From NCBI RefSeq assembly GCF_900101025.1, contig NZ_FMUH01000004.1, positions 1 through 64,000 on the forward strand: DNA of 64,000 bases. Direction: 5' to 3'. Below the pieces are notes generated by a model, which saw nothing but the letters and a program-made list of their open reading frames with translations, was not told the DNA's origin and ran no database searches. Source of the stretch: Klenkia marina (GTDB lineage: Bacteria > Actinomycetota > Actinomycetes > Mycobacteriales > Geodermatophilaceae). Shown here in pieces: positions 21,365 to 36,088 of the stretch. The stretch's first letter is position 1, and every line of letters begins with the position of its first letter. A program made the translations under genes and the position numbers.

Positions 21365-23170
21365 GTGCGTCGCACACTCGGAGGGATCACCGCCTTCCTC
21401 GCCTTCACCGGGGGGCTGCTGGTGCTCCCGGTCTACGCCGCGCCGGCGCCCGCGCCCGAGCCCGTGGAGACCTCCACGGAGCAGGTCGAGATGGGATCGG
21501 TCGATGCACCCGCGCCCGACGCCGAGGTCCAGGAAGGGACGACCGAGCCGGTCGGGGGCGTGTCCCCCGTGGAGCCGACGCTGACCGTGAGCCAGACGGA
21601 CACCGCCGAGTTCTCCCTCGTCGGGGTCACGTGGGCCTACGACGCAGCCGTGACCGGCACCGTCGTGCAGATCCGCGTGCAGGACGAAGCAGGCGCCTGG
21701 GGCGACTGGACTGCGGTCACCGTCGAGGACAGCGACCAGAACACGGGCACGGACTCCGGTGCACCTCGGCGCGGCGGCACGGCTCCGCTGTGGACGGGTG
21801 CGAGCCACGGCGTCGAGGCCGAACTCGTCACGGCCAGCGGGGCCCAGCCCGTCGACGTGACCCTCGACCTGGTCGACCCGGGGACCAGCGATGCCGACGA
21901 CTCCCTCACCGCACCGGACATCCAGGACACGGCGGACGCCGCGACGGCCATGCCGGACGTCTACTCGCGCGCTCAGTGGGGCGCCGACGAGACCATCCGC
22001 ACGTGGGACCCGGAGTACGCGCCCACGATCAAGGCCGCGACCCTCCACCACACGGCGGACACGAACAACTACACCGCGGACCAGGTGCCCGCGATGATGC
22101 GTTCCATCTACCGCTACCACACGGTGAGCAGGGGCTGGGGCGACATCGGCTACAACGTGATCGTCGACAAGTTCGGGCGGCTGTGGGAAGGCCGGTACGG
22201 CGGTCTCGCCAGCACCGTCATCGGGGCGCACGCGGGCGGCTTCAACACCTCCACGTTCGGGGTGTCGATGCTCGGGAACTACGACACGACGCCTGCACCG
22301 CAGGCCATGGTCAACGCGGTCGAGGCCATCATCGCCTGGAAGTTCTCGCTCTACGGGGTCAACCCGTCCGGCACGACGGTCCTGACCTCGAGCGGGGGCG
22401 GTACGTCCAAGTACGCCGCGGGGCAGCGGGTCACCCTGCCGACGATCTTCGGGCACCGGGACGTCGGCAGCACGACGTGCCCCGGTCAGTACGGGTACGC
22501 GCGACTGCCGGAGATCCGGTCGGCCGTCGCGGCCCAGGTCTCGGCATCCCCGTACGTCCGGGCCCTCTACCGCGACATGATGACCCGGGACCCCGACGAC
22601 GGGGGATTGATGATGTGGTCGACGGCTCTGGCCAACGGCTCCCTCGACCGGCGCGGCGCGACGACGGGTTTCGCGACCTCGCTGGAGTACCGGCGACTGA
22701 TCATCACCCAGGCCTACGTCCAGGTGCTCGGGCGAGGCCCCGACCCCAGCGGCATGGACACCTGGCTGCAGCAGCTGAGCCTCGGCAACGTGCGGTTGGA
22801 CAACCTGCGACCCACCCTGATGGCCAGCGCTGAGTTCTACCTCCGTGGGGGCAGCAGCGATGCCGCGTTCGTCAACAACATGTACCAGGCCGCCCTCGGC
22901 AGGTCCGCGGGCTCGAACGAGGTCTCGCACTGGGCCTACGTCCGGCGGCAGGTCGGACCCGAGCCGGTCATCCAGGCCATCTGGGGTTCACCGGAGGCCG
23001 GGATGCGCCGCGTCGACCAGGCGTACCAGTACTACCTCGGACGGGCCGCAGGCGTCTCGGAGCAGCAGTACTGGCTGCCGGTGGTCATGGGCAGCGGCGA
23101 CGAGCGCCTCCGTGAAGAGGTCACCGTCAGCCAGGAGTACTTCCTGCGCGCGCAGTCCCGCTTCCCCTGA
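21365..23170 (+). CDS. Secreted N-acetylmuramoyl-L-alanine amidase (PGRP/Amidase_2) with four-unit DUF4214 tail
   Basis: Cuts the bond between muramic acid and the stem peptide. The 601-residue protein has a signal peptide (RRTLGGITAFLAFTGGLLVL, then APAPAPEP), a Thr/Val/Glu-rich region that looks like a beta domain, and a PGRP-like amidase from YSRAQWGADE (about 199) with zinc-ligand candidates in TLHHTADTN (near 226) and FGHRDVGSTTCPG (near 362). Residues about 396-601 hold four DUF4214-like units of the pattern YxxxLGR...W, ending in RFP. GTG start with CAGGGA seven bases upstream and immediately before the signal peptide. The same tail occurs on the SpoIID protein at 33106. Confidence 0.88.
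   Translation: MRRTLGGITAFLAFTGGLLVLPVYAAPAPAPEPVETSTEQVEMGSVDAPAPDAEVQEGTTEPVGGVSPVEPTLTVSQTDTAEFSLVGVTWAYDAAVTGTVVQIRVQDEAGAWGDWTAVTVEDSDQNTGTDSGAPRRGGTAPLWTGASHGVEAELVTASGAQPVDVTLDLVDPGTSDADDSLTAPDIQDTADAATAMPDVYSRAQWGADETIRTWDPEYAPTIKAATLHHTADTNNYTADQVPAMMRSIYRYHTVSRGWGDIGYNVIVDKFGRLWEGRYGGLASTVIGAHAGGFNTSTFGVSMLGNYDTTPAPQAMVNAVEAIIAWKFSLYGVNPSGTTVLTSSGGGTSKYAAGQRVTLPTIFGHRDVGSTTCPGQYGYARLPEIRSAVAAQVSASPYVRALYRDMMTRDPDDGGLMMWSTALANGSLDRRGATTGFATSLEYRRLIITQAYVQVLGRGPDPSGMDTWLQQLSLGNVRLDNLRPTLMASAEFYLRGGSSDAAFVNNMYQAALGRSAGSNEVSHWAYVRRQVGPEPVIQAIWGSPEAGMRRVDQAYQYYLGRAAGVSEQQYWLPVVMGSGDERLREEVTVSQEYFLRAQSRFP
22553..23167 (+). repeat. Four tandem DUF4214 units in the amidase
   Basis: Units begin near 22553, 22699, 22870 and 23010 and share helix-LGRxxxxxG/E-xxxW. 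The third reads LGRSAGSNEVSHW and the fourth LGRAAGVSEQQYW. DUF4214 is seen in secreted and S-layer-type proteins; its ligand is not established. Confidence 0.7.
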
Positions 23171-23178
23171 TGTGCCCT

Positions 23179-23217
23179 CGACCCGGGCCGCCGTCCCCCC
23201 GACGGTGGCCCGGGTCG
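23179..23217 (+). terminator. Hairpin after the amidase gene
   Basis: Arms 23179-23195 and 23201-23217 pair over 17 positions with one mismatch and a CCCCC loop, eight bases after the amidase stop. Confidence 0.75.
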
Positions 23218-23305
23218 ACCCGTTCCCGGACCTCCGGCTCACCCGCGGTCGGGCGTGAGAGGGTGACCAGGTGATCGGTTCCGCGGAGGGGTCCCCACCG
23301 GCGAC

Positions 23306-25507
23306 ATGTTGATGCTGTTCCTCCTGGTCGTCGGAGCCGTCGTCGTCCTGACGTCCTTCGGCTGGGCCGTCCTGACCCTCGTCCCCGATGAGCTGCGGCG
23401 GCAGGTCCTCCCAGCGGCCCCCGTCGTCGGGATCGCCTTCCTCGTCTGCGGCCTGCACGCCACCGGCATCCTCCTGCCCGTCTCGGTCGGGGTGTGGGTG
23501 CTGGGTGTCGTCGCCGTGGCCCTGATCGCCCGCTTCGTGGTCCGGCACGGGGTCCGCCGCTGGGCGGACCGGACCACGCTCGCCTGGTGCGCAGTGGCCG
23601 TCGCCGTCGGGATCCCGCTCGCCGCGGTCTCGATGGCACCCAGCATCGAACTCGGATCACCGACGGTCGTCAGCGCCACCCCCAGCAACGACGCGGTCTA
23701 CTACGTGTCGGTGACGGGGTGGCTGGAGGAGCACTCCATCCTCGACGCCCCGGCGGTGGCGCCGGTGCCGGCTGGTCAGGAGCCTTCCGGGGCCGTACCG
23801 GGGGACGGCCCGGCGCAGACGGCGCTGGACCTGCCGCTCCGGGTCGGGCAGGAACTGGTCCAGGCTGCGCTGAACGTGCTCACCTCGACGAACCCGACGA
23901 CGACGTTCGTGGCGTGGCTGGGCACCTGGGTGCTGCTGATCCCCGGGGCCTGCGTCGGTGCAGCACGGGTGCTGGGGGCGAGCCGGACGGCAGGTCTGGT
24001 GGCCGGCACGGTCGTCGCCTCCTCCACCGTCCTCGTGCAGCAGGCGTACAACCAGAACGCCGCCTCCGTGCTCGGTGTCGCCCTGGTCCCCCTGGCGATG
24101 GGTCTGTTCGTGGCGTCGCTGCGGCCGGGCACGGACCGGAGGACCCACGTGGTGGCCGCTCTGGTCCTCGGCGCCGTCGTCGGCACCTACTCGGAGTTCG
24201 CGCCCTTCCTGGCGCCGGCCCTGATCGCCGCGGCCGTGGTGCGCAGGACCCACGTCCGGGCGGCCGTGCTGGGGGCTCTGCAGGTCATCCTCCTGGCTGT
24301 GGTCCTGGCGCCGTTGGCCTGGTACCGGGCGGTCGTCTCGCTCCTGGTGGTGGGGTCGGGGGGCGACAACCCGAGCGTCTCGCCCTACCTCGACCCGGAC
24401 GTGCTGGTCGTTGCCGATCGCCTCGTCGGGTTCCCCACAGCGACGTCGAGCACGGGCGTCGCCGTCGCCGGGGGGCTCGCGCTGGTGGTGCTGGGGGGTT
24501 GGGTCGCTGCTGTCCTCGTCGGGCCGGCCCGGGGTCTCGCCACGGGCTTCGCGGTGTCCAGCACGGCCGTCGTCGGGCTGTTGACCGCCGAGGGCCTCGA
24601 CTACGCCCAGCGCCGGGCCGTGGAGATCACCTTCTCGGTCGGGTTGTTCCTCGCCGTCCTCGGGTGGGCCTCCGTCGCCAGCGCCGTGACAGGGTTGGTA
24701 CGGCGGTTCGCCGACCGTCGACGTCCAGCCGTGGCACGGCTGGTGGCTGCCGGCATCGCGTCCGTGGTGCTCGTGTCCCTCGCGGCCTGGGTGTCGCTCA
24801 ACGCACGGTCCTCCCTGGACTCCCTCGACCCCGTGGCGCTGCCCGGTCGGCACGTCGACGGCTCGTTCACCGAGGCGGCTGCCTGGGTCCGCGAACTCGG
24901 CGGCGACGAGGGTGAGGACCTGTCCGTCCTGGTGCCCCAGTTCTTCGACCAGCAGTGGATGACCTTGGTCCTGGCCGACGAGGACGACGTGGAGTACCCC
25001 GCACTCCGGCCTGACTACCTCCGGGTCTCGTCCTACTGGTCCGGCGGCACCGACCGGTACTGGCTGGTCGGGGACGGGGTGCAGGTGGCCGCTGACCCGG
25101 GGGTCGTCATCCGGCAGAACGACCGGTTCCGGTTGCTCGATCTGGACCGTGGCGAGGCTGTGGTCGTCGCACCGTACGACCTCCTGAACTGGAACCTGTT
25201 CGTCCGGCCCGGCGGTGGTTTCGCGACGGTGGGCGACGCCAGTGCCCTGGTGGTGCGCACCCCGGGGGTGTCGCAGCAGATCCAGCTGACCGTCCGGGGG
25301 GAGTCGACCGCGCCGCTGGACGTGGTGGTGTCCACCGGCCGGGGGATTTCGACCTCGGTGGACGGGTTGACCGCCGACCCCGAGCAGGTCGTCGTCGACC
25401 TGCCGTCCGGATCCGCTCCCGTGGTCGTCTCCATGCAGGTCGACAGCCCCAGTGACCCTGCTGCTGCCCGGTGGGTCGTGCTGTCCGGGGTGACGCGGCA
25501 GAACTGA
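23306..25507 (+). CDS. Large polytopic membrane protein, GT-C-like
   Basis: A 733-residue protein with about 12 hydrophobic helices in its first two thirds and a soluble C-terminal domain of about 220 residues. After helix 4 an extracytoplasmic loop carries TPSNDAVYYVSVTGWL, an acidic residue in the place where GT-C glycosyltransferases hold their catalytic Asp. That, and its setting among glycosyltransferases, suggests a polyprenyl-phosphate-sugar-dependent transferase, but no family motif settles it. ATG at 23306 preceded by GGAGGGG. It is convergent with the Wzt gene, 20 bases away. Confidence 0.65.
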   Translation: MLMLFLLVVGAVVVLTSFGWAVLTLVPDELRRQVLPAAPVVGIAFLVCGLHATGILLPVSVGVWVLGVVAVALIARFVVRHGVRRWADRTTLAWCAVAVAVGIPLAAVSMAPSIELGSPTVVSATPSNDAVYYVSVTGWLEEHSILDAPAVAPVPAGQEPSGAVPGDGPAQTALDLPLRVGQELVQAALNVLTSTNPTTTFVAWLGTWVLLIPGACVGAARVLGASRTAGLVAGTVVASSTVLVQQAYNQNAASVLGVALVPLAMGLFVASLRPGTDRRTHVVAALVLGAVVGTYSEFAPFLAPALIAAAVVRRTHVRAAVLGALQVILLAVVLAPLAWYRAVVSLLVVGSGGDNPSVSPYLDPDVLVVADRLVGFPTATSSTGVAVAGGLALVVLGGWVAAVLVGPARGLATGFAVSSTAVVGLLTAEGLDYAQRRAVEITFSVGLFLAVLGWASVASAVTGLVRRFADRRRPAVARLVAAGIASVVLVSLAAWVSLNARSSLDSLDPVALPGRHVDGSFTEAAAWVRELGGDEGEDLSVLVPQFFDQQWMTLVLADEDDVEYPALRPDYLRVSSYWSGGTDRYWLVGDGVQVAADPGVVIRQNDRFRLLDLDRGEAVVVAPYDLLNWNLFVRPGGGFATVGDASALVVRTPGVSQQIQLTVRGESTAPLDVVVSTGRGISTSVDGLTADPEQVVVDLPSGSAPVVVSMQVDSPSDPAAARWVVLSGVTRQN

Positions 25508-25527
25508 TCAGGGCAGGGCCCGCGCCG

Positions 25528-26715
25528 TCACCTCACCAGCGTCGGCGTGCTGCCCAGCAGACCGACGGACACGCCGCCGTTGGACACGGAGAAGTTGGCG
25601 GCCTGGGGCAGGCGGTGCAGCTCCGGACCGGACCAGATGGCGAGGGCGCCGTGCAGCTCGTACCGGCCCGGGCCGAGGCACACGTTGTCCAGGCGGATCT
25701 CGAACTGCTGACGGCCGCGCAGCACCGGCATCCGCTGGCCGAGCAGTTGGGTGTTGGTCCCGAACACGCTCATGCCCGACGGGGTGTCGATGCCGATCCC
25801 GAGCACCCAGTCGTCCAGGGGCGCCGGCGACTCGACGTCCACCTGCACCCGGATGGACTGCCCGGCGGACAGCTCGCGGAACTCCTGCCCGTCCTCGTCG
25901 AGCGCGCGGACCGCCAGCACACGCGCACCAGGAGCGGTGGACGCGGACGGCGAGCTGTCGGCCTCGGCGCGACGAGCCGTCTCGAAGTCGTCGCGCAACG
26001 TCCGGGTGGCGACCGTCGGTTCCCCGTCGACGACGACGCGCCCCGACTCGAGGACCACGGCCCGGTCGCACATGTCGACCACCTGGTCCAGGGCGTGGGT
26101 GACCAGCACGATGGTGCGCCCGTCCTTCTGGAACGAACGGATCTTGTCCAGGCACTTGCGTTGGAAGGGTTCGTCGCCGACGGCGAGCACCTCGTCGACC
26201 AGGAGCACGTCCGGGTCGACGTGGACGGCGACGGCGAAGGCCAGCCGCACGTACATCCCGGACGAGTAGAACTTGACCTGGGTGTCGATGAACTTCTCGA
26301 TGCCGGAGAAGTCGACGATCTCGTCGAAGTAGCGGTCGGTCGTGGCTCGGCTCAGGCCGAGGATCGACGCGTTCAGGTAGACGTTCTCGCGCCCGGTGAG
26401 ATCGGGGTGGAACCCCGCCCCGAGCTCCAGCAGGGCGGCGAGTCGACCGCGGCGCTCGACGGTGCCGGAGGTCGGCTGCAGGATCCCGCCGATCGTCTTC
26501 AGCAGGGTGCTCTTCCCCGAGCCGTTGGGCCCGATGAGCCCGACGGTGGTGCCGGCGTGGATGTCGAGGTCGACGTCGCGCAGAGCCCAGAAGTCCTCGC
26601 GGTGCTTCCGGGAGCGAGCCGCGTTGACCAAGCGCTCCTTGAGCGATTTGTCCTTGCGGATGACGAAGCGCTGCGACACGTCGCGCAGCCGGACGACGGT
26701 GGGTGTGGTTGTCAT
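25528..26715 (-). CDS. Polysaccharide ABC exporter ATP-binding protein (Wzt/TagH type) with C-terminal domain
   Basis: Powers export of a lipid-linked glycan with the permease encoded next to it. In 395 residues: Walker A GPNGSGKST at 62-70, the signature YSSGMYVRLAFA near 150, Walker B VLLVDE near 171 and the AVGDEPFQRKC segment that marks the Wzt/TagH branch. Residues about 255-395 form an extra beta-rich domain (ending NFSVSNGGVSVGLLG) like the Wzt C-terminal glycan-binding domain that recognises a finished chain end. ATG one base after the permease stop. An upstream extension of the frame over the permease gene was discarded. Confidence 0.93.
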   Translation of the reverse strand: MTTTPTVVRLRDVSQRFVIRKDKSLKERLVNAARSRKHREDFWALRDVDLDIHAGTTVGLIGPNGSGKSTLLKTIGGILQPTSGTVERRGRLAALLELGAGFHPDLTGRENVYLNASILGLSRATTDRYFDEIVDFSGIEKFIDTQVKFYSSGMYVRLAFAVAVHVDPDVLLVDEVLAVGDEPFQRKCLDKIRSFQKDGRTIVLVTHALDQVVDMCDRAVVLESGRVVVDGEPTVATRTLRDDFETARRAEADSSPSASTAPGARVLAVRALDEDGQEFRELSAGQSIRVQVDVESPAPLDDWVLGIGIDTPSGMSVFGTNTQLLGQRMPVLRGRQQFEIRLDNVCLGPGRYELHGALAIWSGPELHRLPQAANFSVSNGGVSVGLLGSTPTLVR

Positions 26716-26716
26716 C

Positions 26717-27655
26717 TCACAGTTCCTGGGCGAAGTTCGCCTCGAGCCGGGCGAAGAGGCGTTGCGCGAGCCACAGCAGGACCAAACCGACGGCCAGCAT
26801 GACGCCGAGCCGTGCGGCCATGCCGTCGGGGAAGGGTTGATCGGCCCCCGCGACCCAGAAGGCACGCTGCATGCCCAGCACCGCCGCGGTGATCGGGTTG
26901 GCCAGGTAGAGCTGTTGCAGGGTCGGGTGGTCCACCACCCGACTGACCAACTCCCACGAGTAGACGACGGGGGTGGACCAGAACATCACCGTCAGGCCGA
27001 TCTCGACCAGGTACTGCACGTCCCGCAGGTAGACGTTGACCGCGGCCAGGACCAGGGCCAGTGCCGTGGCGTAGACGATCAGCACCGACAGGGCCAGGGG
27101 TGCGTACAGCAGGCGGGAGCTCGTCGGGACGGCACCGGCTGCGACCAGGGCCAGCAGCAGGATGACGAACTGGGTGGCGAAGGTGAACATGGCCGAACCG
27201 ACCACGCTGAGGGGGAAGACCTCCCGCGGTAGGTAGACCTTCTTGATCAGACCCGCGTTGCCGACGATGCATCCAGTTCCGCCGGCGACGACCTCGGTGA
27301 AGAACTGCCACACCGTCAGGCCCGTGAAGATGTAGATGGCGAAGTCCGGGATGGACCGCTCGGCGCCCAGGAACTTGCCGATCGCGATGTAGTACACCAA
27401 CAAGATCGCCAGCGGACGGATGAGGCTCCAGAGGAAACCCAGGGCGCTGTCCTTGTACCTGGCCTTGAGCTCGCGCCGGACGAGGAGGGACAGCAACTCC
27501 CGGTAGGCCGCGAGGTCCCTCAGGGAGTGCAGCGTGCCCCGGAAGAACCCACGCACGGACCCGGCCGGGACGAGCGGTTCCTCGGCGAGCCGGGTCATCC
27601 GCGCGCTCGCCTCGTCGTTCAGCGGGGTGGCTGGGCGATCGCCGATCGAGGTCAT
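26717..27655 (-). CDS. Polysaccharide ABC exporter permease (Wzm/TagG type)
   Basis: A 312-residue ABC2-type permease. The N-terminal amphipathic region (RGFFRGTLHSLRDLAAYRELL) leads to LVRRELKARYKDSALGFLWSLIRPL, the conserved entry segment of O-antigen and teichoic-acid permeases, followed by six helices. Its ATG overlaps the stop of the upstream glycosyltransferase gene (ATGA), so five genes from the methyltransferase at 31654 to the ATPase at 25528 form one tightly coupled operon. Confidence 0.92.
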   Translation of the reverse strand: MTSIGDRPATPLNDEASARMTRLAEEPLVPAGSVRGFFRGTLHSLRDLAAYRELLSLLVRRELKARYKDSALGFLWSLIRPLAILLVYYIAIGKFLGAERSIPDFAIYIFTGLTVWQFFTEVVAGGTGCIVGNAGLIKKVYLPREVFPLSVVGSAMFTFATQFVILLLALVAAGAVPTSSRLLYAPLALSVLIVYATALALVLAAVNVYLRDVQYLVEIGLTVMFWSTPVVYSWELVSRVVDHPTLQQLYLANPITAAVLGMQRAFWVAGADQPFPDGMAARLGVMLAVGLVLLWLAQRLFARLEANFAQEL

Positions 27656-29175
27656 GGGGTCTTCTCGCTCTGCGCTAGGTGCTGCCAGGTGTCTCGGGCG
27701 TACTCGTCCCAGGTGCGGCGAGGCCGGGCGGCGGCTGCCTTCCGGAGCTCCTGGTAGTGGTCCTCGTCGACGAGGACCCGCCGCAGGCCGTCCCTGATCG
27801 AGGCGTCATCACGCGGGTCGACCAGTTCGGCGCCGCCTGCTGACGCGATCTGCGCCATGCTCCCGAAGTCGGAGGTGACGATGGGTGTGCCGCAGGCGAG
27901 GGCCTCGGCGATGGGGAGGCCGAACCCCTCGTTCAGCGACGGGAAGACGACGCAGCGGCTCGCCCGGTAGGCGGCCCACAGCTGGTCGTCGGTCACGCTG
28001 CTGAAGTTCTGGACCGGCCTGCCCTGTGCACGCAACGAGCTGAGGGTCTGGTCGAACGCCCGGCTGTTCCAGGCGTGCCCACCGATGAAGGCCAGGCTGA
28101 AGCGCACCCCGTCGCGCCACAGGAGCTCGCACGCGTGGAGCACGGCGAGGTGGTTCTTGCGCGGTTCGTGCGTGCCCACGCAGAGCACCACGGGCAGCGT
28201 GCCCGTCCGCAGCTCGTCCCGGGCCCACACCAGACCCTCCTCGGAGGCGTCGACGGGCTCGACGGGCAGGACGACGGGGTCGATGGTCGGCCCCGACCGA
28301 CCGATCGCCGACAGCATGTGCCGCCAGCCGCGGTACTCGATCGCGGCCGCTTCGGAGATCGCCGCGACGGTGGTGAAGTCGCGGACCGCCACCAGGTTGT
28401 TGGCGAAGGACTCGCTGACACCTGCGTCGGTGGTCTCGGCGGAGCTGATCGGCACGCAGTCGAAGCCGATCACGCCGGTGCGGGTCCGGGCATGGCGGGC
28501 GAGGGCGGCCAACCTGCTGGTGCGGTCCCGTTCGGGGGCCAGCTCGGGCAGCAGGTACGTGGCGCCCCAGGGGACGACGAGGTCCGCCGTCCCCCGTTCC
28601 CCGCTCGGCGCCTCGGTGCCGTGCAGGGCACGTGCCGACTCCCCCCGGTCCAGCCGGCGCAGGGCGCGTTGCCCCTCCCACCCCACGAGGACGACGTCGT
28701 GGTCGCGGGCCCAGCGACGCGCGGTCTCGCGCGCGACGCGCTGGATGCCCGTGGCGAGCGAGGTCCTGCTGGTGTGCTCGAGGTCCACGAGGACCTCGTC
28801 GGTCACGACCTCGACCCGGGGTTCGGGCAGCCGTCGCCGCAGCCGACGGAGACCGGCTCGGAGGACGAGGTCCTGCAGGACGACCTCAGGGCCGTCCAGC
28901 CGGATGCGCCGCACCTGCCGGACGACGTCCTCCAGCTCCGGCAGCTCGGCCTGGAGCACCGCCAGCGCGAGCCAGACCTCGTCGGGGTCCGGGGCGCGGA
29001 AGCGGTCGTGCATCGCGACGACGTCGTCGTGGTCGGGGCGTCCGCCGCTGTGCGCCACGTCCAGGACGCGGGCCACCAGCGCGAACCGCTCGCCCAGGGC
29101 CGCCCATCGGTCACCCGGGGACCGGAACAGCTGGTCGAGCGGGACCGATGCCGCCACCCGGCTCCGCAGGCTCAC
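27652..29175 (-). CDS. GT4 glycosyltransferase with helical N-terminal module (twin B)
   Basis: A 507-residue GT-B enzyme. Residues 1 to about 125 are a helical module of unknown role. The catalytic part starts VLVDLEHT and shows GIQRVARETARRW, then the donor-domain segments GTHEPRKNHLAVLHACELL and NEGFGLPIAEALACGTP (the E-x7-E pattern of GT4). It is a tandem paralogue of the next gene upstream, sharing the GIQRVxRETxxRW segment and overall layout. GTG start within the stop of that gene (GTGA). Donor and acceptor unknown; GDP-mannose-type donors are made in this window. Confidence 0.87.
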   Translation of the reverse strand: MSLRSRVAASVPLDQLFRSPGDRWAALGERFALVARVLDVAHSGGRPDHDDVVAMHDRFRAPDPDEVWLALAVLQAELPELEDVVRQVRRIRLDGPEVVLQDLVLRAGLRRLRRRLPEPRVEVVTDEVLVDLEHTSRTSLATGIQRVARETARRWARDHDVVLVGWEGQRALRRLDRGESARALHGTEAPSGERGTADLVVPWGATYLLPELAPERDRTSRLAALARHARTRTGVIGFDCVPISSAETTDAGVSESFANNLVAVRDFTTVAAISEAAAIEYRGWRHMLSAIGRSGPTIDPVVLPVEPVDASEEGLVWARDELRTGTLPVVLCVGTHEPRKNHLAVLHACELLWRDGVRFSLAFIGGHAWNSRAFDQTLSSLRAQGRPVQNFSSVTDDQLWAAYRASRCVVFPSLNEGFGLPIAEALACGTPIVTSDFGSMAQIASAGGAELVDPRDDASIRDGLRRVLVDEDHYQELRKAAAARPRRTWDEYARDTWQHLAQSEKTP

Positions 29176-30680
29176 GCCGTCTCCTCCACGTGCTCGGCGA
29201 CCAGGACACGCCACGACTCGGCCGCGTAGTCGTCCCAGGTCCGGGTGGGTCGTGACGCGGCCTGTGCCTCGAGCTCGCACAGGAGGTCGTCGTCGGTGAG
29301 CAGTCGCCGCATCCCCGCCATGAGGGCGTCGTCGTCGCGGGGGTCGACGGTGAGGGCGCCACCCTCCGCGGCGATCTCGGCTGTGCTCCCGTAGCCGGTC
29401 GTGAGCGCTGGTGTGCCGTGCGCCAGGGACTCGGCGACGGGGAGCCCGTACCCCTCGTGGAGGCTGGCGAAGACGGTGAACCGGGCGTCGGCGAAGGCCT
29501 GCCACAGTTCGCGGTCCGAGAGACGGACGGCGATGTCGACGTCGCGACCTCGGGCGGCCAGACGGTTGAGCTCGGCGTCGAACTCGGTCCGCCAGCCGCC
29601 ACCGCCGATGAACCGCAACCGGAACCGGTGCCCCTCGCGCCACAGGCGCTCAGCGGCGTGGAGCACGGCCAGCTGGTTCTTCCTGGGCTCGAAGCTGCCC
29701 ACCGCGATGACCAGGGGCGCGCCCGTCGGCGACGGCCGGGCCTCGACCTCGGGCACCTGCATGGGCAGGGCCACCTCGACGACGGCGGGACCGGTGAGGC
29801 CTTGGGCGCCCATCATCTGGGAGAAGCCCTCGAACTCGTCGCGGGCCGAACTCGAGATCGCGGCGACCGTGCGGGCGTGCTTGACCAGGTGCAGGTAGCG
29901 CATGAACCGGTCCGGCAACCCGGGGTGGATCAGCTCGGGACTGACGACGGGGATGCAGTCGTACCCGAGGACGGTGGCGGTGTTGCCGCTCAGCTCGGCC
30001 AGCGCGGCGAGTGCGGGGCACCGCTGCGGCTCCGGGTTCTCCGGGAACACGACCACCGACCGCCACGGCACGACGAGCCGGGGTCGGGTCGGGCCGTCCA
30101 CGGTGCGGGCGGCCGAGGACGTACCCCACCGGATCACCCGGTCGGTCTCGCTGCCCGTCAGGCGACGGGTGGCCCCGCCGGCTGCGGTCCACGCCACCAG
30201 CGTGAGGTCGTGGTCGCGCACCCACCGGGGGACGGTCTCCCGGACGACGCGCTGGATGCCGGTGTGGTGGTCGCTTGTCGCGCAGAAGTCGACGTCGACG
30301 ACGACGCCCTGGTCGAGGACCTCGAGCTCCGCGTCGGGGGAGCCGCCGCCGACGACGGCGGACAGGCCCGCCTCGAGCAACCACTGCACGGACCCGAGCG
30401 TGTCGGTGAGCTCGAGGTGCCGACGCATGGAGGCGAGTTCGTCGTGCGTGGGGAAGGCCCCGGTCAGCGCGGTCCACACCAGCCACGCCTTCGATGCATC
30501 GGCGCGGGAGCGCAGCTCCTCCACCAGGGTGGTGAGCACGGTTCCGGCATCCTGCTGCGGAACCGGGTCGGCGTCCGGCACGGCCTCGACGACGAACGGC
30601 GCGACGGCACGGAGACGCTGCGCCAGAGCGGCGCCGACGCCGTGGACGGAGGGCGCCTCGGGGGCGTGGGCGGAGGTCAC
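29172..30680 (-). CDS. GT4 glycosyltransferase with helical N-terminal module (twin A)
   Basis: A 502-residue paralogue of the downstream enzyme. N-terminal helical module up to about 125 with AWLVWTALTGAFPTHDEL, then VVVDVDF and HTGIQRVVRETVPRWVRDHD, donor-domain GSFEPRKNQLAVLHAAERL and HEGYGLPVAESLAHGTP. The start is the GTG at 30680, which overlaps the methyltransferase stop as GTGA; the frame runs on upstream only as noise. Twin order and spacing suggest a gene duplication followed by divergence of acceptor specificity. Confidence 0.87.
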   Translation of the reverse strand: MTSAHAPEAPSVHGVGAALAQRLRAVAPFVVEAVPDADPVPQQDAGTVLTTLVEELRSRADASKAWLVWTALTGAFPTHDELASMRRHLELTDTLGSVQWLLEAGLSAVVGGGSPDAELEVLDQGVVVDVDFCATSDHHTGIQRVVRETVPRWVRDHDLTLVAWTAAGGATRRLTGSETDRVIRWGTSSAARTVDGPTRPRLVVPWRSVVVFPENPEPQRCPALAALAELSGNTATVLGYDCIPVVSPELIHPGLPDRFMRYLHLVKHARTVAAISSSARDEFEGFSQMMGAQGLTGPAVVEVALPMQVPEVEARPSPTGAPLVIAVGSFEPRKNQLAVLHAAERLWREGHRFRLRFIGGGGWRTEFDAELNRLAARGRDVDIAVRLSDRELWQAFADARFTVFASLHEGYGLPVAESLAHGTPALTTGYGSTAEIAAEGGALTVDPRDDDALMAGMRRLLTDDDLLCELEAQAASRPTRTWDDYAAESWRVLVAEHVEETA

Positions 30681-31654
30681 GGACGACGGCTCCGCCGCAG
30701 CTGGGCCGACCGCACCGACCGCAACGGCGCGGTGATGCGCCAGGACAGCGTCCTCTGCAGGGCGTCGAGCTCCTGGCGGAGGTGACCGTTGTCGGACGAG
30801 CCCCTCGCGGAGGTGGCGGTGCGCGCGGCCTTGGCCCACTGCTCCAGGACCCGTCCCCGCCACGAGACCACCTGGCGGGTGAGCTCGGCGTTCTCCAGGC
30901 GCACCCCGCCCAGCTCTGCGTCCAGGCTCTCCACCCGTCGTTCGGCCACGAAGGTGCGGATCGGGACCCAGGAGTCCAGCGGGCACGCCGGGTGGTCGAG
31001 CTCGGGCAGCAGGTCGACGTGCTCCTGCGCCACGTACCACTGGGAGAGGCCGTCGAACATGGCGTGGACGTAGCCGTTGCCCAGGACGATGTGCTCCCAC
31101 TCGTGGTGCGTGCGGTCGCGGCTGCGAGGGGCGGTGGCCTCGACGACGAGGACCCACGGGCGGTGCACGGACAGGTCGATGCTCCGGAGGACGTCGTGCT
31201 CGGCGCCCTCCACGTCGACCATCAGGAAGTGGATCTCCTCGCCGGCGGGGACGTGCTCGACGAGGACGTCGTCCAGTCGGCGGGCCGGTACCCGGACCTC
31301 GGTCGCCTCGATGCCCGATGCCTCGTGGCCGGCGCTGATGTCCTCGCGCACGGTCGACAGCCCGGTGCCCTCGAAGACGTGCAGGACGACTTCCTGCTCC
31401 GCGGCGTCGGTGACGGCGGCCTCCACGACGACGTCGCGGGGTCGGGCCTCGCGGTAGGCCTGGGCGAAGGCGGGTACGGGTTCGACGGCCACCCCGGCCC
31501 AACCGCGGTCGTAAAAGGCCTTGCTGATGGAGTCGACCGCAGGGTGGTTGGCGCCGACCTCGACGTACCGCCCGTTCTGCACAGAACCCAGGGCGCGCCA
31601 CAGCACCACGTCCTCGGCGTTCTGTGCGTGGGACACCAGCAGCTCTTCGCTCAC
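30677..31654 (-). CDS. FkbM-family methyltransferase with C-terminal coiled coil
   Basis: First gene of the exporter operon, 325 residues. The N-terminus SEELLVSHAQNAEDVVLWRAL is typical of FkbM-type O-methyltransferases near glycan clusters; GRYVEVGANHPAVDS is the SAM loop and HFLMVDVEGAEHDVL is the motif holding the family Asp-Val-Glu-Gly. After residue 245 come a short coiled coil and the tail LSWRITAPLRSVR, a conserved end found on many envelope glycan enzymes. It could methylate a sugar, capping the chain for Wzt recognition. I chose GTG 31654 because a TATGGT hexamer ends seven bases before it; ATG 31666 would lie inside that hexamer. Confidence 0.85.
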   Translation of the reverse strand: MSEELLVSHAQNAEDVVLWRALGSVQNGRYVEVGANHPAVDSISKAFYDRGWAGVAVEPVPAFAQAYREARPRDVVVEAAVTDAAEQEVVLHVFEGTGLSTVREDISAGHEASGIEATEVRVPARRLDDVLVEHVPAGEEIHFLMVDVEGAEHDVLRSIDLSVHRPWVLVVEATAPRSRDRTHHEWEHIVLGNGYVHAMFDGLSQWYVAQEHVDLLPELDHPACPLDSWVPIRTFVAERRVESLDAELGGVRLENAELTRQVVSWRGRVLEQWAKAARTATSARGSSDNGHLRQELDALQRTLSWRITAPLRSVRSAQLRRSRRP

Positions 31655-31661
31655 GGCGGCC

Positions 31662-31667
31662 ACCATA
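31662..31667 (-). promoter_or_regulatory. -10 hexamer TATGGT, leaderless start of the exporter operon
   Basis: On the minus strand TATGGT is followed by seven bases and the GTG at 31654. The alternative ATG start codon at 31666 is part of the hexamer itself. Confidence 0.45.
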
Positions 31668-31843
31668 CGTCGGCTGCCCCCTCTCCTCCGGGGACCTCGG
31701 CAGTGGCGCGGGGCACCCCACCCACCCTCCGGGCTACGGTCCTCCGTGTCACAGCGGCCCGGACGGCAGGCTGCGTCGGCTCTCGGCCAAGGCCCCGGCG
31801 AGGCGCGCCACACCGTCCGTCGGCCGGCCACCGAGGAGGCCCC

Positions 31844-32983
31844 ATGACCCAGCGCACCATCACCCACGACGTCGTCATGGGCCTGACCTACTACTCGCCC
31901 TACGTGAGCGGTCTGACCGAGGCGGCCCGGCTCGTCGCCGAGGGGTTGGCCGCCCGGGGCAAGCGTGTCCTCGTGGTGGCGACCAGGCACGAGGCGCACC
32001 TGCCTGCGCACGAGGTGCTCAACGGGGTGGAGGTCCGCCGCACCCCGGTCGTCGCCCGCCTGGGCAAGGGGGTCATCAGCCCCACGTTCCCCGCGGTGGT
32101 CGCCAGAGCCGCCCGGCGCTCGCGGGTGCTCAACCTGCACATGCCCCTGCTGGAGGCAGGTGCGGTCGCGCTGCTGTCCGGGTCGACCCCGACGGTGCTG
32201 ACCTACCAGTGCGACGTCTCGATGCAGGGGACGCGGCTGGACCGCGTGCAGCAGCGGGTGATGGACCTCTCGTCGGCGGCAGCCATGCGCCGCAGCGACG
32301 TCGTCGTGCCCTCCAGTGACGACTACGCCGTGCACTCCCGTCTGCGCCCGGCGATGGAGGGCAGGACCCGCGCCATCGCTCCGCCGTGCGTCGACCGGAG
32401 GGGGGGCGCCCCCGCGTTCCGGGACGGCGCGGGGCCGCACGTCGGGTTCGTCGGGAGGATCGTCGAGGAGAAGGGGTTGGAGTTCCTGGTCGAGGGCTTC
32501 CGCCGCCTCGAGGACCCGACGGCCCGGCTGCTGATCGCCGGCGACCACGCCCGGGTCGCCGGGGGGAGCGTCGTCGAGCGGGTCCGCGCTGCGGTGGGGG
32601 CGGACCCGCGGATCCGTCTGCTGGGGTTCCTGCCCGACGACCGACTGGCCGATCTGTACGCCTCGTTGGACGTCTTCGCCCTCCCCTCCGTCAACTCCTT
32701 CGAGGCCTTCGGCATCGTGCAGGTGGAGGCCATGCTGGCCGGGGTCCCCTCCCTCGCCAGTGACATCCCGGGGGTGCGCATCCCTGTCCAGCGGACGGGG
32801 TTCGGCGTGGTCGTGGCTCCTCGTGACCCGGATGCCGTGCACCGCGGGCTGCGCGACCTGACCCTCGACCTGTCCGATCGCGTCGACGGTGCCCGCCGCA
32901 CCGCCGAGCTCTACGGGCTCGAGCGGACGCTGGACGAGTACGACGCGGTCTTCGAGTCCGTGGCGCGGCCCGGAGGTCGCTGA
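31844..32983 (+). CDS. GT4 glycosyltransferase
   Basis: A 379-residue GT-B enzyme similar in layout to mannosyltransferases of the PimA/WcaI kind. The N-terminal half has YYSPYVSGLTEAARLVAEGL, the donor half FVGRIVEEKGLEFLVEGF and the E-x7-E segment SFEAFGIVQVEAML. ATG start preceded by GAGGAGG (31833-31839) at four bases. Divergent from the exporter operon with 189 bases between starts. Specificity unknown. Confidence 0.88.
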   Translation: MTQRTITHDVVMGLTYYSPYVSGLTEAARLVAEGLAARGKRVLVVATRHEAHLPAHEVLNGVEVRRTPVVARLGKGVISPTFPAVVARAARRSRVLNLHMPLLEAGAVALLSGSTPTVLTYQCDVSMQGTRLDRVQQRVMDLSSAAAMRRSDVVVPSSDDYAVHSRLRPAMEGRTRAIAPPCVDRRGGAPAFRDGAGPHVGFVGRIVEEKGLEFLVEGFRRLEDPTARLLIAGDHARVAGGSVVERVRAAVGADPRIRLLGFLPDDRLADLYASLDVFALPSVNSFEAFGIVQVEAMLAGVPSLASDIPGVRIPVQRTGFGVVVAPRDPDAVHRGLRDLTLDLSDRVDGARRTAELYGLERTLDEYDAVFESVARPGGR

Positions 32984-33029
32984 CCGTCGTCGCTCCTCAA
33001 GGAACCCCGGCGTGCTGCCGACACACAGT

Positions 33030-33088
33030 GGAGAGCGGCCGGTGACCCCGGCTGCGTCCACCTGAGCAGCGGAGACCTTCCGCTCTCC
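33030..33088 (+). promoter_or_regulatory. Structured leader upstream of the SpoIID gene
   Basis: GGAGAGCGG (33030-33038) can pair perfectly with CCGCTCTCC (33080-33088); the enclosed bases contain a smaller GCTGC/GCAGC stem. The fold ends just before the GAAGAGGGG ribosome site of the next gene. No known riboswitch consensus was recognised. Confidence 0.35.
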
Positions 33089-33105
33089 CGACGAAGAGGG
33101 GTCCC

Positions 33106-34929
33106 ATGTCGACCGCCCGCCGCTTCCCCCGGCCGGGGCTCGTCAGGTCCGCCGTGGCCGCGCTGGCCACGCTCCTGCTCGTCTCCGCAGCACCCACGGG
33201 TGCGGCGTCCGCCGCACCCGGCGACGTCACGATCTCGGGCCACGGGTACGGCCACGGCCGCGGGATGAGCCAGTGGGGGGCCTACGGCTACGCCGTGGAC
33301 CTCGGGGCCGACCACGCCAGCATCCTGGACCACTACTACGGGGGCACGACGGCCGCTTCGGACGCCGGGAACCCCGTGGTGAGCGTGGAGCTGCTCAGCC
33401 TGCGCAACCGGGAGACCGTGCTGACCGGGCCGGACCTCACCCTGAACGGTGCGCCGATCGGCCGCGCGGCCGTCCGCATCCGGGGCGTGGCCAGCAACAC
33501 CTTCGAGGTCCTCGTGGGTGACAGCTGCAGCGGTCCCTGGACGGTCCTGGGCGCGACCCCCCGGGTGTCGTCCGGCGCGACCGTGGGCGGCGAGGTCCGC
33601 TCGTGCGAGTCGGGCCAGGTGCGCGCCTACCGCGGCACGATGTCGGTGGTGGACGGCGGCGGTTTCCAGACCACCGTCAACAACGTCTCCATCGACGACT
33701 ACCTCCGCGGGGTGGTCCCCCGCGAGATGCCGGCCAGCTGGGCCAACGCCGGTGGAGGCCGCGGCGCCGAGGCCGTGAAGGTGCAGGCGGTGGCTGCCCG
33801 CAGCTACGCGCTGGCGTCCCAGTGGACCTCCTACGCGAAGACGTGCGACACGACGAGCTGCCAGGTGTACGGCGGTGCGTACACGCAGCCGTTCGGCGGG
33901 GCGGTCACGTGGCTCGAGGACTCCCGCACCAACTCCGCGATCGCGGCGACCTCGGGACAGGTCCGCCGGACGCCCGGTGGGGCCGTCGTCCGGACCGAGT
34001 TCAGCTCCTCCTCCGGCGGGTTCACCGCCGGCGGGGCGTTCCCGGCGGTCGAGGACCGGGGCGACGCCACGGCTGGCAACCCCAACCACAACTGGTCGGT
34101 GTCCATGTCGTTGGCCGACATCGGCAACCGTCTCGGGCTGGGCTCCGTCACCGGGATCGCCGTCACGCAGGCCAACGGGCTCGGGCCCGACGGCGGGCGG
34201 GCCCTGCAGGTGACCGTGTCGACCGCAGGCGGGTCGCGGACCTACACCGGCAACCAGATCAGGTCGGCGCTGGGGCTGAAGAGCGACTGGTTCACCTTCA
34301 CCAACCGCGGCGCATCGGCCATGGTGCAGGCGCTCTACGCCGACGTCCTGGGTCGTCCGGCCGATGCCGGCGGCGTGTCCTACTGGACCGCCCAGCTGGC
34401 GTCCGGGCAGAGTTCCCAGTCCGTGGCGCAGGGCTTCGCAGCCTCCTCGGAGCGGTTCGGGCAACTGGTGCGCACCGCCTACGTCCAGGGTCTGAGGCGC
34501 GCTCCCGACCCCGGCGGACTGGCGACCTTCACGAACTACCTGTCCGGGGGCGGCAGCCCCAACGAGCTCACGGTCGCGATCTGGTCCACCCCCGAAGCCG
34601 TGCAGGCGCAGGGCGGCGACCGGCTCTGGATCGAGGGGCTCTACCAGGCCCTGCTGGGTCGATCGGCCGGGGAGGACGAGCGTGACTTCTGGCAGGGCCG
34701 ACTCGCCTCCGGGCCGCGCGCCGCGGTCGTGCGCGAGATCACGACGTCGGCCGAGGCCCGCGAGCTGAGGCTGGGGATCTACTACCAGGTCCTGCTCGGT
34801 CGGGCCGTCGATGCGGGGGGCCGGGCATCGTTCCTGCCGGCACTCGCGCAGCGCGGGGACGTCGACGTGGTGGCGGCGCTCGCCTCGAGCGCGGAGTACG
34901 CCCAGCGGGCCGCGGCCCGCTTCCCCTGA
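33106..34929 (+). CDS. Secreted SpoIID/LytB-domain protein with four-unit DUF4214 tail
   Basis: SpoIID proteins are lytic transglycosylases that cut glycan strands stripped of peptides. The 607-residue protein has a signal peptide (to about residue 36, ASAAPGD), GHGYGHGRGMSQWGAYG near 45 and the SpoIID core with YLRGVVPREMPASW near 200 (the glutamate is the expected catalytic acid), VKVQAVAARSYAL and FSSSSGGFTAGG. From about 405 to the end there are four DUF4214 units ending in RFP, matching unit by unit the tail of the amidase at 21365. ATG start with GAAGAGGGG upstream. Followed by an exceptionally strong terminator. Confidence 0.9.
   Translation: MSTARRFPRPGLVRSAVAALATLLLVSAAPTGAASAAPGDVTISGHGYGHGRGMSQWGAYGYAVDLGADHASILDHYYGGTTAASDAGNPVVSVELLSLRNRETVLTGPDLTLNGAPIGRAAVRIRGVASNTFEVLVGDSCSGPWTVLGATPRVSSGATVGGEVRSCESGQVRAYRGTMSVVDGGGFQTTVNNVSIDDYLRGVVPREMPASWANAGGGRGAEAVKVQAVAARSYALASQWTSYAKTCDTTSCQVYGGAYTQPFGGAVTWLEDSRTNSAIAATSGQVRRTPGGAVVRTEFSSSSGGFTAGGAFPAVEDRGDATAGNPNHNWSVSMSLADIGNRLGLGSVTGIAVTQANGLGPDGGRALQVTVSTAGGSRTYTGNQIRSALGLKSDWFTFTNRGASAMVQALYADVLGRPADAGGVSYWTAQLASGQSSQSVAQGFAASSERFGQLVRTAYVQGLRRAPDPGGLATFTNYLSGGGSPNELTVAIWSTPEAVQAQGGDRLWIEGLYQALLGRSAGEDERDFWQGRLASGPRAAVVREITTSAEARELRLGIYYQVLLGRAVDAGGRASFLPALAQRGDVDVVAALASSAEYAQRAAARFP
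34319..34926 (+). repeat. Four tandem DUF4214 units in the SpoIID protein
   Basis: Units begin near 34319, 34459, 34624 and 34765. Unit 1 reads LYADVLGRPADAGGVSYW, unit 3 LGRSAGEDERDFW, unit 4 LLGRAVDAGGRASF. Same number and order as in the amidase. Confidence 0.7.
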
Positions 34930-34990: not shown

Positions 34991-36088
34991 TCACCGGTCC
35001 TGGGCGGCGTCCTCGTAGGCGCGCAGGTGCGCCGACGCGGAGATCGACCACGTGAAGCCGGCTGCGTGTGCACGTCGGGAGCCGGTGTCGCCCGGGGCCG
35101 AGGCCGGGTTGCCCAGAGCCGAGGCCCAGCAGTCCGGATCGGCCGGGTCGAGCAGCTGCGCCTGCCCCCCGGCCACCTCGCGGTGCGCCGGTATGTCGCT
35201 GGCCAGCACCGGGCGCCCGGCGGCCAACGCCTCCAGGACGGGGAGGCCGAAGCCCTCGTAGTGGGAGGGCATGCAGACCGAGGTCGCCCCGGCCACCACG
35301 GACCGGAGGTCCTCGTCCGGCAGGTAGCCGGCCAGCACGACGTCGGCGGGGTCCGGCTCGGCGCCCTGCCAGCGGTCCCCCCAACCAGCGGGGCCGACGA
35401 GCACCAGGGGTGGCACCCCGGGGTCGGAGCGTCGGGCTGCTCGATGCGCGGCCACCAGCATGCCGAGGTTCTTGCGGGGCTCGAGGTTCCCGGTGAACAG
35501 GTGGTACTCGGGCGGGAGCCCGAGCGCAGCCAGCTGCCCGGGGGTCGCAGGCGTCGCCGCGGACCACTCCGGGTCCACCCCGTGCGCTGCCACGTGCACC
35601 CGGTCCGCCGGGAGGCCGTACTCGTCCCGGATCTCCTCCGCCATGGCGTGCGTCACCGCGAGCACGTGGGCGCCCCCGTCCAGAGCCCGCGGAACCAACC
35701 GGGCGTAGTGCTCCGCGTCGCCCGTGACCGTCTGCGGGTAGCGCAGGTAGGCCAGGTCGTGCACGGTGACCAGCCGCCCGGCCCGCGCAGTGGGGGGCGC
35801 GACGAAGTTCGTCCCGTGGAACACCGCCACCCGACCGGTGAGCAGCTCGGCCGGGGGGAACCGGGTGTGCGCCCAGGTCCGGCGCAGCAGGCGGGCCGGT
35901 GCTCGACGGGGCGCCGGGCGGACGGTGGCCGACGACGCCACGGGGACGGACCCCCGGATGCTGAACAGGGTGAGCAGCACCTCCGGGGCCTCGGGCAGCT
36001 GCTGCAGGCCGGCGACCAGGCCGGCGACGTACCGACCCACCCCGCTGCGCTGCCCGAGGAGCGGGGTCGCGTCCAGACCGATGCGCAC
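34991..36088 (-). CDS. GT4 glycosyltransferase
   Basis: A 365-residue GT-B enzyme starting RIGLDATPLLGQRSGVGRYV, the usual opening of mannosyl- or rhamnosyl-type GT4 enzymes, then HGTNFVAPP, TVHDLAYLRYPQ, FTGNLEPRKNLGMLV and HYEGFGLPVLEALAAGRP (E-x7-E). GTG start with AGGAG four bases upstream. Divergent from gmd. Similar in length and motifs to the enzymes at 38151 and 41102, so these three are probably a paralogous set acting on one glycan. Specificity unknown. Confidence 0.88.
   Translation of the reverse strand: MRIGLDATPLLGQRSGVGRYVAGLVAGLQQLPEAPEVLLTLFSIRGSVPVASSATVRPAPRRAPARLLRRTWAHTRFPPAELLTGRVAVFHGTNFVAPPTARAGRLVTVHDLAYLRYPQTVTGDAEHYARLVPRALDGGAHVLAVTHAMAEEIRDEYGLPADRVHVAAHGVDPEWSAATPATPGQLAALGLPPEYHLFTGNLEPRKNLGMLVAAHRAARRSDPGVPPLVLVGPAGWGDRWQGAEPDPADVVLAGYLPDEDLRSVVAGATSVCMPSHYEGFGLPVLEALAAGRPVLASDIPAHREVAGGQAQLLDPADPDCWASALGNPASAPGDTGSRRAHAAGFTWSISASAHLRAYEDAAQDR

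Follow-up and report, generated by a model that had tools for sequence, protein, structure and literature searches.

Matching, exchangeable tails on a secreted amidase and a SpoIID/LytB protein in a surface-glycan locus of Klenkia marina

SpoIID-type enzymes are known mainly from sporulation. What, then, does such an enzyme do in a surface-glycan locus of Klenkia marina, and why does it share its C-terminal tail with a secreted amidase that is encoded on the other side of a glycan export operon? Both genes lie in the first 64,000 nucleotides of contig NZ_FMUH01000004.1 (positions 1 to 64,000, forward strand), the whole of which is referred to as the window:

21365–23170, plus strand: secreted Amidase_2 (PGRP-type) protein, 601 amino acids; Amidase_2 at residues 221–375, DUF4214 tail at about residues 385–601 (with linker: window 22499–23167)
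33106–34929, plus strand: secreted SpoIID/LytB protein, 607 amino acids; DUF4214 tail at about residues 397–607 (window 34294–34926)

The reading that we consider probable is that of a vegetative two-step peptidoglycan-cutting pair within a surface-glycan locus, held by matching anchors that probably bind the exported wall glycan.

The amidase contains PF01510 at residues 221–375 (59.4 bits; cut-off 26), while the SpoIID protein contains PF08486 at residues 189–286 (73.8 bits; cut-off 23) and matches the SpoIID/LytB domain model TIGR02669 with 140.6 bits against a cut-off of 83.3. The GTG start of the amidase at 21365 is also the start of its orthologues, and both enzymes begin with a signal-peptide-like N-terminus, as judged by eye. 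In their catalytic parts the two proteins do not align (local score 39 vs. a mean of 46, standard deviation (SD) 6.6, in 200 shuffles). The tails, in contrast, align end to end with 75 of 208 aligned positions identical, reaching a global score of 245 vs. a shuffled mean of −39 (SD 15; 300 shuffles). This bears out the original prediction, which had described unrelated catalytic parts followed by four DUF4214 units in matching order: PF13946 (DUF4214; 98.2 bits in the amidase and 100 bits in the SpoIID protein, cut-off 23.2) scores three stretches per protein, and the fourth unit is seen in the tail alignment and an all-alpha model. Unit 3 of both tails carries LGRSAG-x2-E and both proteins end in RFP, as had been described, and the genes do lie on either side of a glycan export operon, with 9.9 kb between them that include the Wzt/Wzm operon. 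In the window genome, all five DUF4214 matches fall inside these two genes; the domain was found in 8 of 112 genomes of the Geodermatophilaceae, the family of K. marina.

Judging from their motifs, both enzymes are likely active. The SpoIID protein contains the motif GYGHGRGMSQWGA at residues 47–59 and GVVPREMP with Glu207. This catalytic Glu belongs to the GVVxxE motif, named for SpoIID in a passage of PMC6934232, and is aligned in 75 of 75 SpoIID cores, and the two Cys of a zinc-like motif are present in 68 and 70 of the 75, respectively. The amidase aligns with the PGRP 4z8i, including ghrdvGstacpG; by pattern count, HHT/S occurs in 74 of 75 amidase cores and an HRD..CPG-like motif in 66. 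We take the HHT and GHRD...CPG motifs of the amidase to be zinc-site motifs. By alignment, the SpoIID domain of the window is circularly permuted compared with the solved SpoIID of Firmicutes: residues 176–387 correspond to residues 59–269 of 4rwr, and residues 26–69 to residues 274–316, with the GHGxGMSQxGA segment N-terminal here and C-terminal, after the catalytic Glu, in the solved structure. The permuted order is shared by all 75 SpoIID cores compared; segment order is not a criterion of the curated SpoIID models.

That amidase and SpoIID form a conserved unit is supported by their arrangement in relatives. Among 80 SpoIID loci (the best 80 of 272 relatives, a set leaning towards close kin of the window SpoIID), the distance to an amidase of this type is at most 500 bp in 39, 0.5–2.5 kb in three and 2.5–10 kb in six, and two encode the amidase and SpoIID as a fusion. 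It is thus close (at most 10 kb) or fused in 50 of the 80 (48 + 2). Seventeen of the loci end within 5 kb, and 13 show no such amidase despite at least 5 kb on both sides, including L144 (= G079), the amidase of which is located just outside the stretch. Where both genes were found in Rhodococcus loci, they are divergent. In family f13 (L115 6615–9371, L116 7380–10166), amidase and SpoIID are combined in one tailless protein, according to a Pfam run on L115, while two metagenome-assembled genomes (MAGs) of Geodermatophilaceae (L175, L177) encode an amidase-SpoIID fusion ending in a single tail. A SpoIID-core match was obtained in 26 family genomes, and in 23 of these the amidase is fused to SpoIID or no more than 11 kb away; the 23 include G027, which retains a SpoIID remnant only. 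As for the other three, no amidase was seen in the stretch of G075, that of G071 ends at a contig end, and that of G068 was not fetched.

The tails of these relatives are of several types, i. e. DUF4214, LGFP repeats (PF08310), a DWDGDG repeat (DWDG), a 'GWALDPD' repeat of approximately 95 residues (R95), another repeat without a name (T5), and a 'DGGIFAFGDA' repeat (DGG). The DWDGDG repeat is all-beta by prediction and probably forms a propeller. Representatives of DWDG, R95, T5 and DGG obtained no Pfam name at E 0.01, with the exception of one RCC1_2 match in the DGG-type amidase of L194 (23.8 bits; cut-off 22). Tail pairs were drawn from 75 loci with amidase and SpoIID in one fetched stretch; four fusions as well as L120 and L186, each with one partner devoid of a real tail, stand outside the resulting 70 pairs, and the G079 pair, split over stretches L032 and L033, was entered by hand. 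Typing was done per domain, with models seeded with tails of the same set, which inflates the scores but leaves the type calls clear. It replaced a single-linkage clustering of the tails (68 of 70 matches), which was dropped as it merged DUF4214 with a different repeat via two-domain amidases of Acidimicrobiia. The same tail type is found on both enzymes in 67 of the 70 pairs and over six types, one of the 67 being counted by a single fragment of the broken G032 amidase (L038). Shuffling of partners gave 18.8 matches on average and at most 31 in 2000 shuffles. The mismatched pairs are L117 (two different types), L142 (neither tail typed) and L164 (DGG vs. DUF4214). Among representatives with SpoIID cores less than 60, 50 or 45% identical, 30 of 33, 17 of 20 and 10 of 12 pairs match, respectively. 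As at least six types of tail are in use, DUF4214 is not an essential part. Hence, the proposal of a vegetative two-step pair recruited by DUF4214 survives as a conserved pair with matched tails that is distinct from the SpoIIP machine of sporulation (see below), but not in the role it gave to this particular domain.

The catalytic heads are more constant than the tails. Compared with the window amidase, heads are 60–85% identical in 14 relatives (66–85% in six genomes of the genus), whereas tails of other types reach 21–35% in the 14 relatives, with shuffled tails at 25–29%, and 28–35% vs. 26–29% shuffled in the six genomes of the genus. With mismatched pairs left out and fusions given labels of their own, the matched tail label changes at least 13 times on the amidase-core tree and at least nine times on the SpoIID-core tree, and the two trees disagree; the family-only amidase-core tree requires 11 changes. 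On this family tree, the window sequence pairs with that of G079 (98), and their group also contains G100, R95-tailed G105 and LGFP-tailed G076 and G080. The SpoIID core of the window, in contrast, falls among sequences of Cellulomonadaceae and Promicromonosporaceae, in a clade with DUF4214 tails. A tail may also be passed directly from one gene to its neighbor. In G025 (L107 6711–11710), the 3' ends of the neighboring genes share a stretch of 1280 bp with 1273 identical positions (99.5%; seven differences), and this LGFP tail, with eight repeats scored in the amidase, is a recent copy between the two genes. In Cellulosimicrobium (L151), the amidase and SpoIID tails are sisters.

The surroundings of the pair in the window are those of a wall-glycan locus:

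19461–20828, minus strand: LytR-CpsA-Psr (LCP) glycopolymer transferase with LytR_C domain, divergent from the amidase
23306–25507, plus strand: hydrophobic-looking protein of 733 amino acids, between amidase and export operon
25528–26715, minus strand: Wzt, ABC ATPase with Wzt_C domain
26717–27655, minus strand: Wzm, ABC-2 type membrane protein
27652–29175, minus strand: glycosyltransferase (Glycos_transf_1), 507 amino acids
29172–30680, minus strand: glycosyltransferase (Glycos_transf_1), 502 amino acids
30677–31666, minus strand: FkbM-type methyltransferase
31844–32983, plus strand: glycosyltransferase beside SpoIID
34991–36088, minus strand: glycosyltransferase downstream of SpoIID
36203–38145, plus strand: two GDP_Man_Dehyd genes for nucleotide-sugar supply (36203–37189, GDP-mannose 4,6-dehydratase-like; 37186–38145, paralogue)
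43182–44261, plus strand: ManC-like nucleotidyltransferase, presumably for GDP-mannose supply

The first dehydratase scores 413.9 bits, just under the TIGR01472 cut-off of 415. From the dehydratase-like genes together with ManC it follows that the exported polymer is probably built with a GDP-mannose-derived sugar. The 733-residue protein has no Pfam or NCBIfam match, and relatives (46–48% identical) were seen only in G079 and G101 among the family loci compared. G079, from the same genus, shows the layout of the window with 10 kb between the amidase and SpoIID genes; the two genes are 6.8 kb apart in G101 and direct neighbors in G028 and G032. In all four genomes, the pair adjoins close relatives of the window Wzt and Wzm. 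As a separate observation, the amidase and Wzt genes of the one-contig genome G032 are each split over several frames (L038 5179–6973, 8992–10202), by either sequencing errors or decay.

The suggested connection between tail and surface-glycan locus is visible as a raw association between tail type and exporter type. It was assessed in a table of 70 family genomes in which the amidase had been typed; SpoIID is overrepresented in this set, which comprises 69 cores (G032 omitted). Family amidases were fetched in part, and G070 with its T5 tail is absent. For 21 of the 69 cores the exporter is missing from the fetched stretch, and these are outside the count. Exporters with an ATPase of at least 350 amino acids were classed as 'long', a stand-in for the Wzt_C domain (PF14524); DUF4214 genomes were set to 'long' by rule, which had no effect as the five counted have 395–403 amino acids. 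In these five other DUF4214 genomes, Wzt is 67–79% identical to that of the window (5/5), compared with 40–45% in R95-tailed genomes (9/9). DWDG-tailed genomes have a short ATPase of 253–260 amino acids in all nine cases (of 13) in which one was found, and of 24 LGFP-tailed genomes, 21 have a short ATPase and three a long one. Altogether, DUF4214 or R95 tails go with 14 long and no short exporters, other tails with four long and 30 short ones (Fisher 6e-9, uncorrected and ignoring relatedness). A branch of the exporter tree (88/69) separates the six DUF4214 genomes from all others, the R95 genomes fall into two groups, and LGFP and DWDG genomes are mixed.

Taken together, the following course is suggested. 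The amidase would strip the stem peptides from peptidoglycan, and the SpoIID/LytB enzyme would then cut the stripped glycan strand. The matching C-terminal anchors, here four DUF4214 units, may hold both enzymes at the same wall sites, most likely by binding a wall-linked polysaccharide that the surrounding genes would make, export (Wzm/Wzt) and attach (LCP). In relatives, the catalytic heads are retained and the anchor type varies, with the same type on both enzymes.

Several findings weigh against this scheme. The amidase is often alone: SpoIID is present in the fetched stretches of 21 of the 70 family genomes and absent from those of 49, and of 397 genomes of the order, 306 match the amidase profile and 92 the SpoIID profile (counts for which at most three candidates were scored per genome and some matches concern the tail only). 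G100 has a DUF4214 amidase and no SpoIID-core match. Independent occurrence, which the original prediction had named as a refutation, thus applies to the amidase, but not to SpoIID with its 23 accompanied cases out of 26. In addition, the tail/exporter association comprises only two independent contrasts on supported branches (1.7 agreeing on average, none opposing) and six on all branches, which is not significant. LGFP and DWDG genomes share the short-ATPase subtype, and therefore exporter subtype was rejected as a full predictor of tail type. As tail and cassette are physically linked, linkage alone could carry both together. Furthermore, the tails of the window are not each other's closest relatives, formally the other refutation named in the original prediction: the SpoIID tail goes with Cellulomonadaceae SpoIID tails and the amidase tail with family amidase tails. 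One clade of family amidase and SpoIID tails was rejected by the approximately unbiased (AU) test (p 0.0008; 10 vs. 45 rows). This excludes a recent tail copy in the window genome but says nothing against a shared function; with the tails in separate groups, their match must either be old or have been assembled from two sources. Finally, the anchors are also found elsewhere. In DWDG, R95 and LGFP genomes, the tail domain occurs on further open frames, several of them on the same contig, and a secreted subtilase with a DUF4214 tail is encoded in G032 and G101 (L036 10591–12474, L041 9398–11245), with four DUF4214 units and fn3 by Pfam in G032 and a link by tail comparison in G101.

These latter observations lead to the explanation that the tails are a general surface anchor of the lineage, carried by many exported proteins, so that the pair would match without any special recruitment of two enzymes. 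Counted as matching stretches rather than genes, there are 7–11 DWDG matches per genome in the eight DWDG genomes searched, 2–8 R95 matches in five R95 genomes and 7–60 LGFP matches in five LGFP genomes. With the same anchor on other proteins, the matched tails must in part reflect the anchor type of each genome instead of recruitment specific to the pair, and the simplest reading of the shared tails is a surface anchor characteristic of each lineage that the pair has in common with other proteins. The anchor is close to, though not strictly, one type per genome. G000 and G079 contain DUF4214 and gave no LGFP, R95 or DWDG match; of the nine genomes of the genus searched, five contain LGFP and four (G000, G079, G078 and the incomplete G081) do not, while R95 occurs in G078 and G083 of four members searched. 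An exception is G083 (C4:3235607-3237016), in which an R95-tailed amidase coexists with a 958-residue frame with LGFP repeats. In G092 (L039 10304–12556), a BNR/sialidase-like protein carries four DUF4214 units while the genome's own amidase/SpoIID pair is DWDG-tailed. A different domain use is seen in G006 (L034 10272–11087), where a glycan cluster encodes a 271-residue protein that carries two DUF4214 units and lacks an obvious signal peptide. As a complete account, a general anchor nevertheless seems rather unlikely to us: DUF4214 is confined to the pair in the window genome, G079 and G028, and the closeness and fusions of the two genes show a special relation beyond a shared anchor.

Linkage could also suffice by itself. 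The amidase would then mark the edge of a horizontally exchanged glycan cassette, and recombination within its head would swap tail, SpoIID and exporter as a block without any functional fit. This would agree with a conserved head that faces the core genome and a tail that faces the cassette and is variable like the inner genes, and in most of the family loci compared the neighbors of the head are indeed LCP or core genes. A precedent is the wall teichoic acid cassette of Bacillus subtilis, for which a passage of PMC8753576 lists lytC, lytB, tagU and tagH and describes swapping by recombination. Yet, the SpoIID cores of R95- and LGFP-tailed family genomes are of another lineage (42–48% identical to that of the window, in another fully supported group) and still carry the tail type of their amidase. 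Moreover, the tail was copied between genes in G025, and matching extends to the divergent gene pairs of Rhodococcus. We therefore regard linkage alone as an unlikely explanation.

The closest known system suggests yet another mode of action. The pair resembles the lytRABC divergon of B. subtilis, as described in passages of PMC2632651 and PMC8753576, in which an amidase and a SpoIID/LytB protein occur with a divergent LCP gene and a wall-glycan cassette: LytC is the amidase, LytB the SpoIID/LytB modifier and LytR the LCP protein, and the cassette includes tagH. A paper from 1992 already refers, in its title as cited in PMC10653849, to a modifier homologous to autolysin and SpoIID. The window shows a similar layout with a divergent LCP gene and a wall-glycan cassette, SpoIID being located 9.9 kb from the amidase. 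Unlike in LytB/LytC, the amidase here is of the Amidase_2/PGRP type (LytC belongs to another amidase class), the tails are DUF4214 and C-terminal, the SpoIID segments are permuted, and relatives have at least five other tail types; CWB2 (PF04122) had no match in the window proteins at E 0.1. By analogy with what has been proposed for B. subtilis LytB, SpoIID could act as a modifier that stimulates the amidase without cutting glycan itself. The catalytic Glu in all 75 cores and the Cys in 68 and 70 of them speak for cutting but would be compatible with a modifier role as well, LytB itself being outside the comparison, and on balance a pure modifier appears improbable. The sporulation machine of SpoIID, SpoIIM and SpoIIP (SpoIIDMP), which acts in engulfment, was rejected because SpoIIP was found in none of nine genomes of the genus (including one that is 73% complete), with B. 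subtilis as a positive control. The likeness to this machine consists of the conserved GVVxxE motif and of the order of cutting described in a passage of PMC6934232, where SpoIID needs denuded glycan, so that the amidase acts first and SpoIID second; the window SpoIID reaches only 87.8 bits with the SpoIID equivalog model, below its cut-off of 234.75.

For the anchoring part of the preferred two-step pair, the Cwp/CWB2 proteins of Clostridioides difficile offer a parallel. There, proteins with a common repeat anchor bind a wall polysaccharide, the synthesis and export locus of which lies next door; according to a passage of PMC5842191, the clostridial CWB2 domains resemble LytB and LytC, the roles of which are swapped in that passage, and bind PSII, the product of the neighboring locus. 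Unlike CWB2, DUF4214 is another Pfam family, and its glycan binding is putative. An Acidimicrobiales MAG (L176 680–2716) encodes a SpoIID protein with CWB2 repeats, the tail type of clostridial wall proteins, and an amidase of this type was not found in its 9.7-kb contig. Two fold comparisons were made for the tail. The phycobilisome linker fold (PF00427) comes from proteins that belong to phycobilisomes, a context absent from this locus, and the likeness to the N-terminal domain of RsaA, the Caulobacter S-layer protein that binds O-antigen, is a weak fold lead only.

Hence, the general plan of an amidase and a SpoIID/LytB protein in a wall-glycan cassette is already known. Searches of the open-licence literature yielded no account of concerted tail changes, of the fusions, of a DUF4214 anchor or of the pair in its actinobacterial form, nor a paper that pairs SpoIID with circular permutation or with LGFP. 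By analogy, the best reading is an amidase/SpoIID pair like Bacillus LytC/LytB, the tail of which is specific to the lineage and probably a ligand of the exported wall glycan. A wider picture is conceivable, although we advance it only tentatively: amidase and SpoIID could be a conserved engine across the Actinomycetota with an exchangeable glycan-reading tail, in which the amidase, with a constant head and a tail specific to the cassette, marks the border of a mobile surface-glycan cassette and SpoIID is refitted with this tail type by copying or recombination. DUF4214, DWDG, R95, T5 and DGG would then be wall-polysaccharide anchors not described before, each suited to the polymer that the neighboring genes export.

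For the biology of these bacteria, the findings are evidence that SpoIID-type enzymes act as standing partners of an amidase in actinobacteria, a link that is strongly supported by the gene fusions. The coordinated tail types may provide a route to learning which domain reads which wall polysaccharide, by comparing tail, pair and exporter genome by genome, and could reveal a first function for DUF4214 and for several repeats that are still without a name. The pair may thus serve as a model for how wall cutting is aimed at the glycan-decorated wall.

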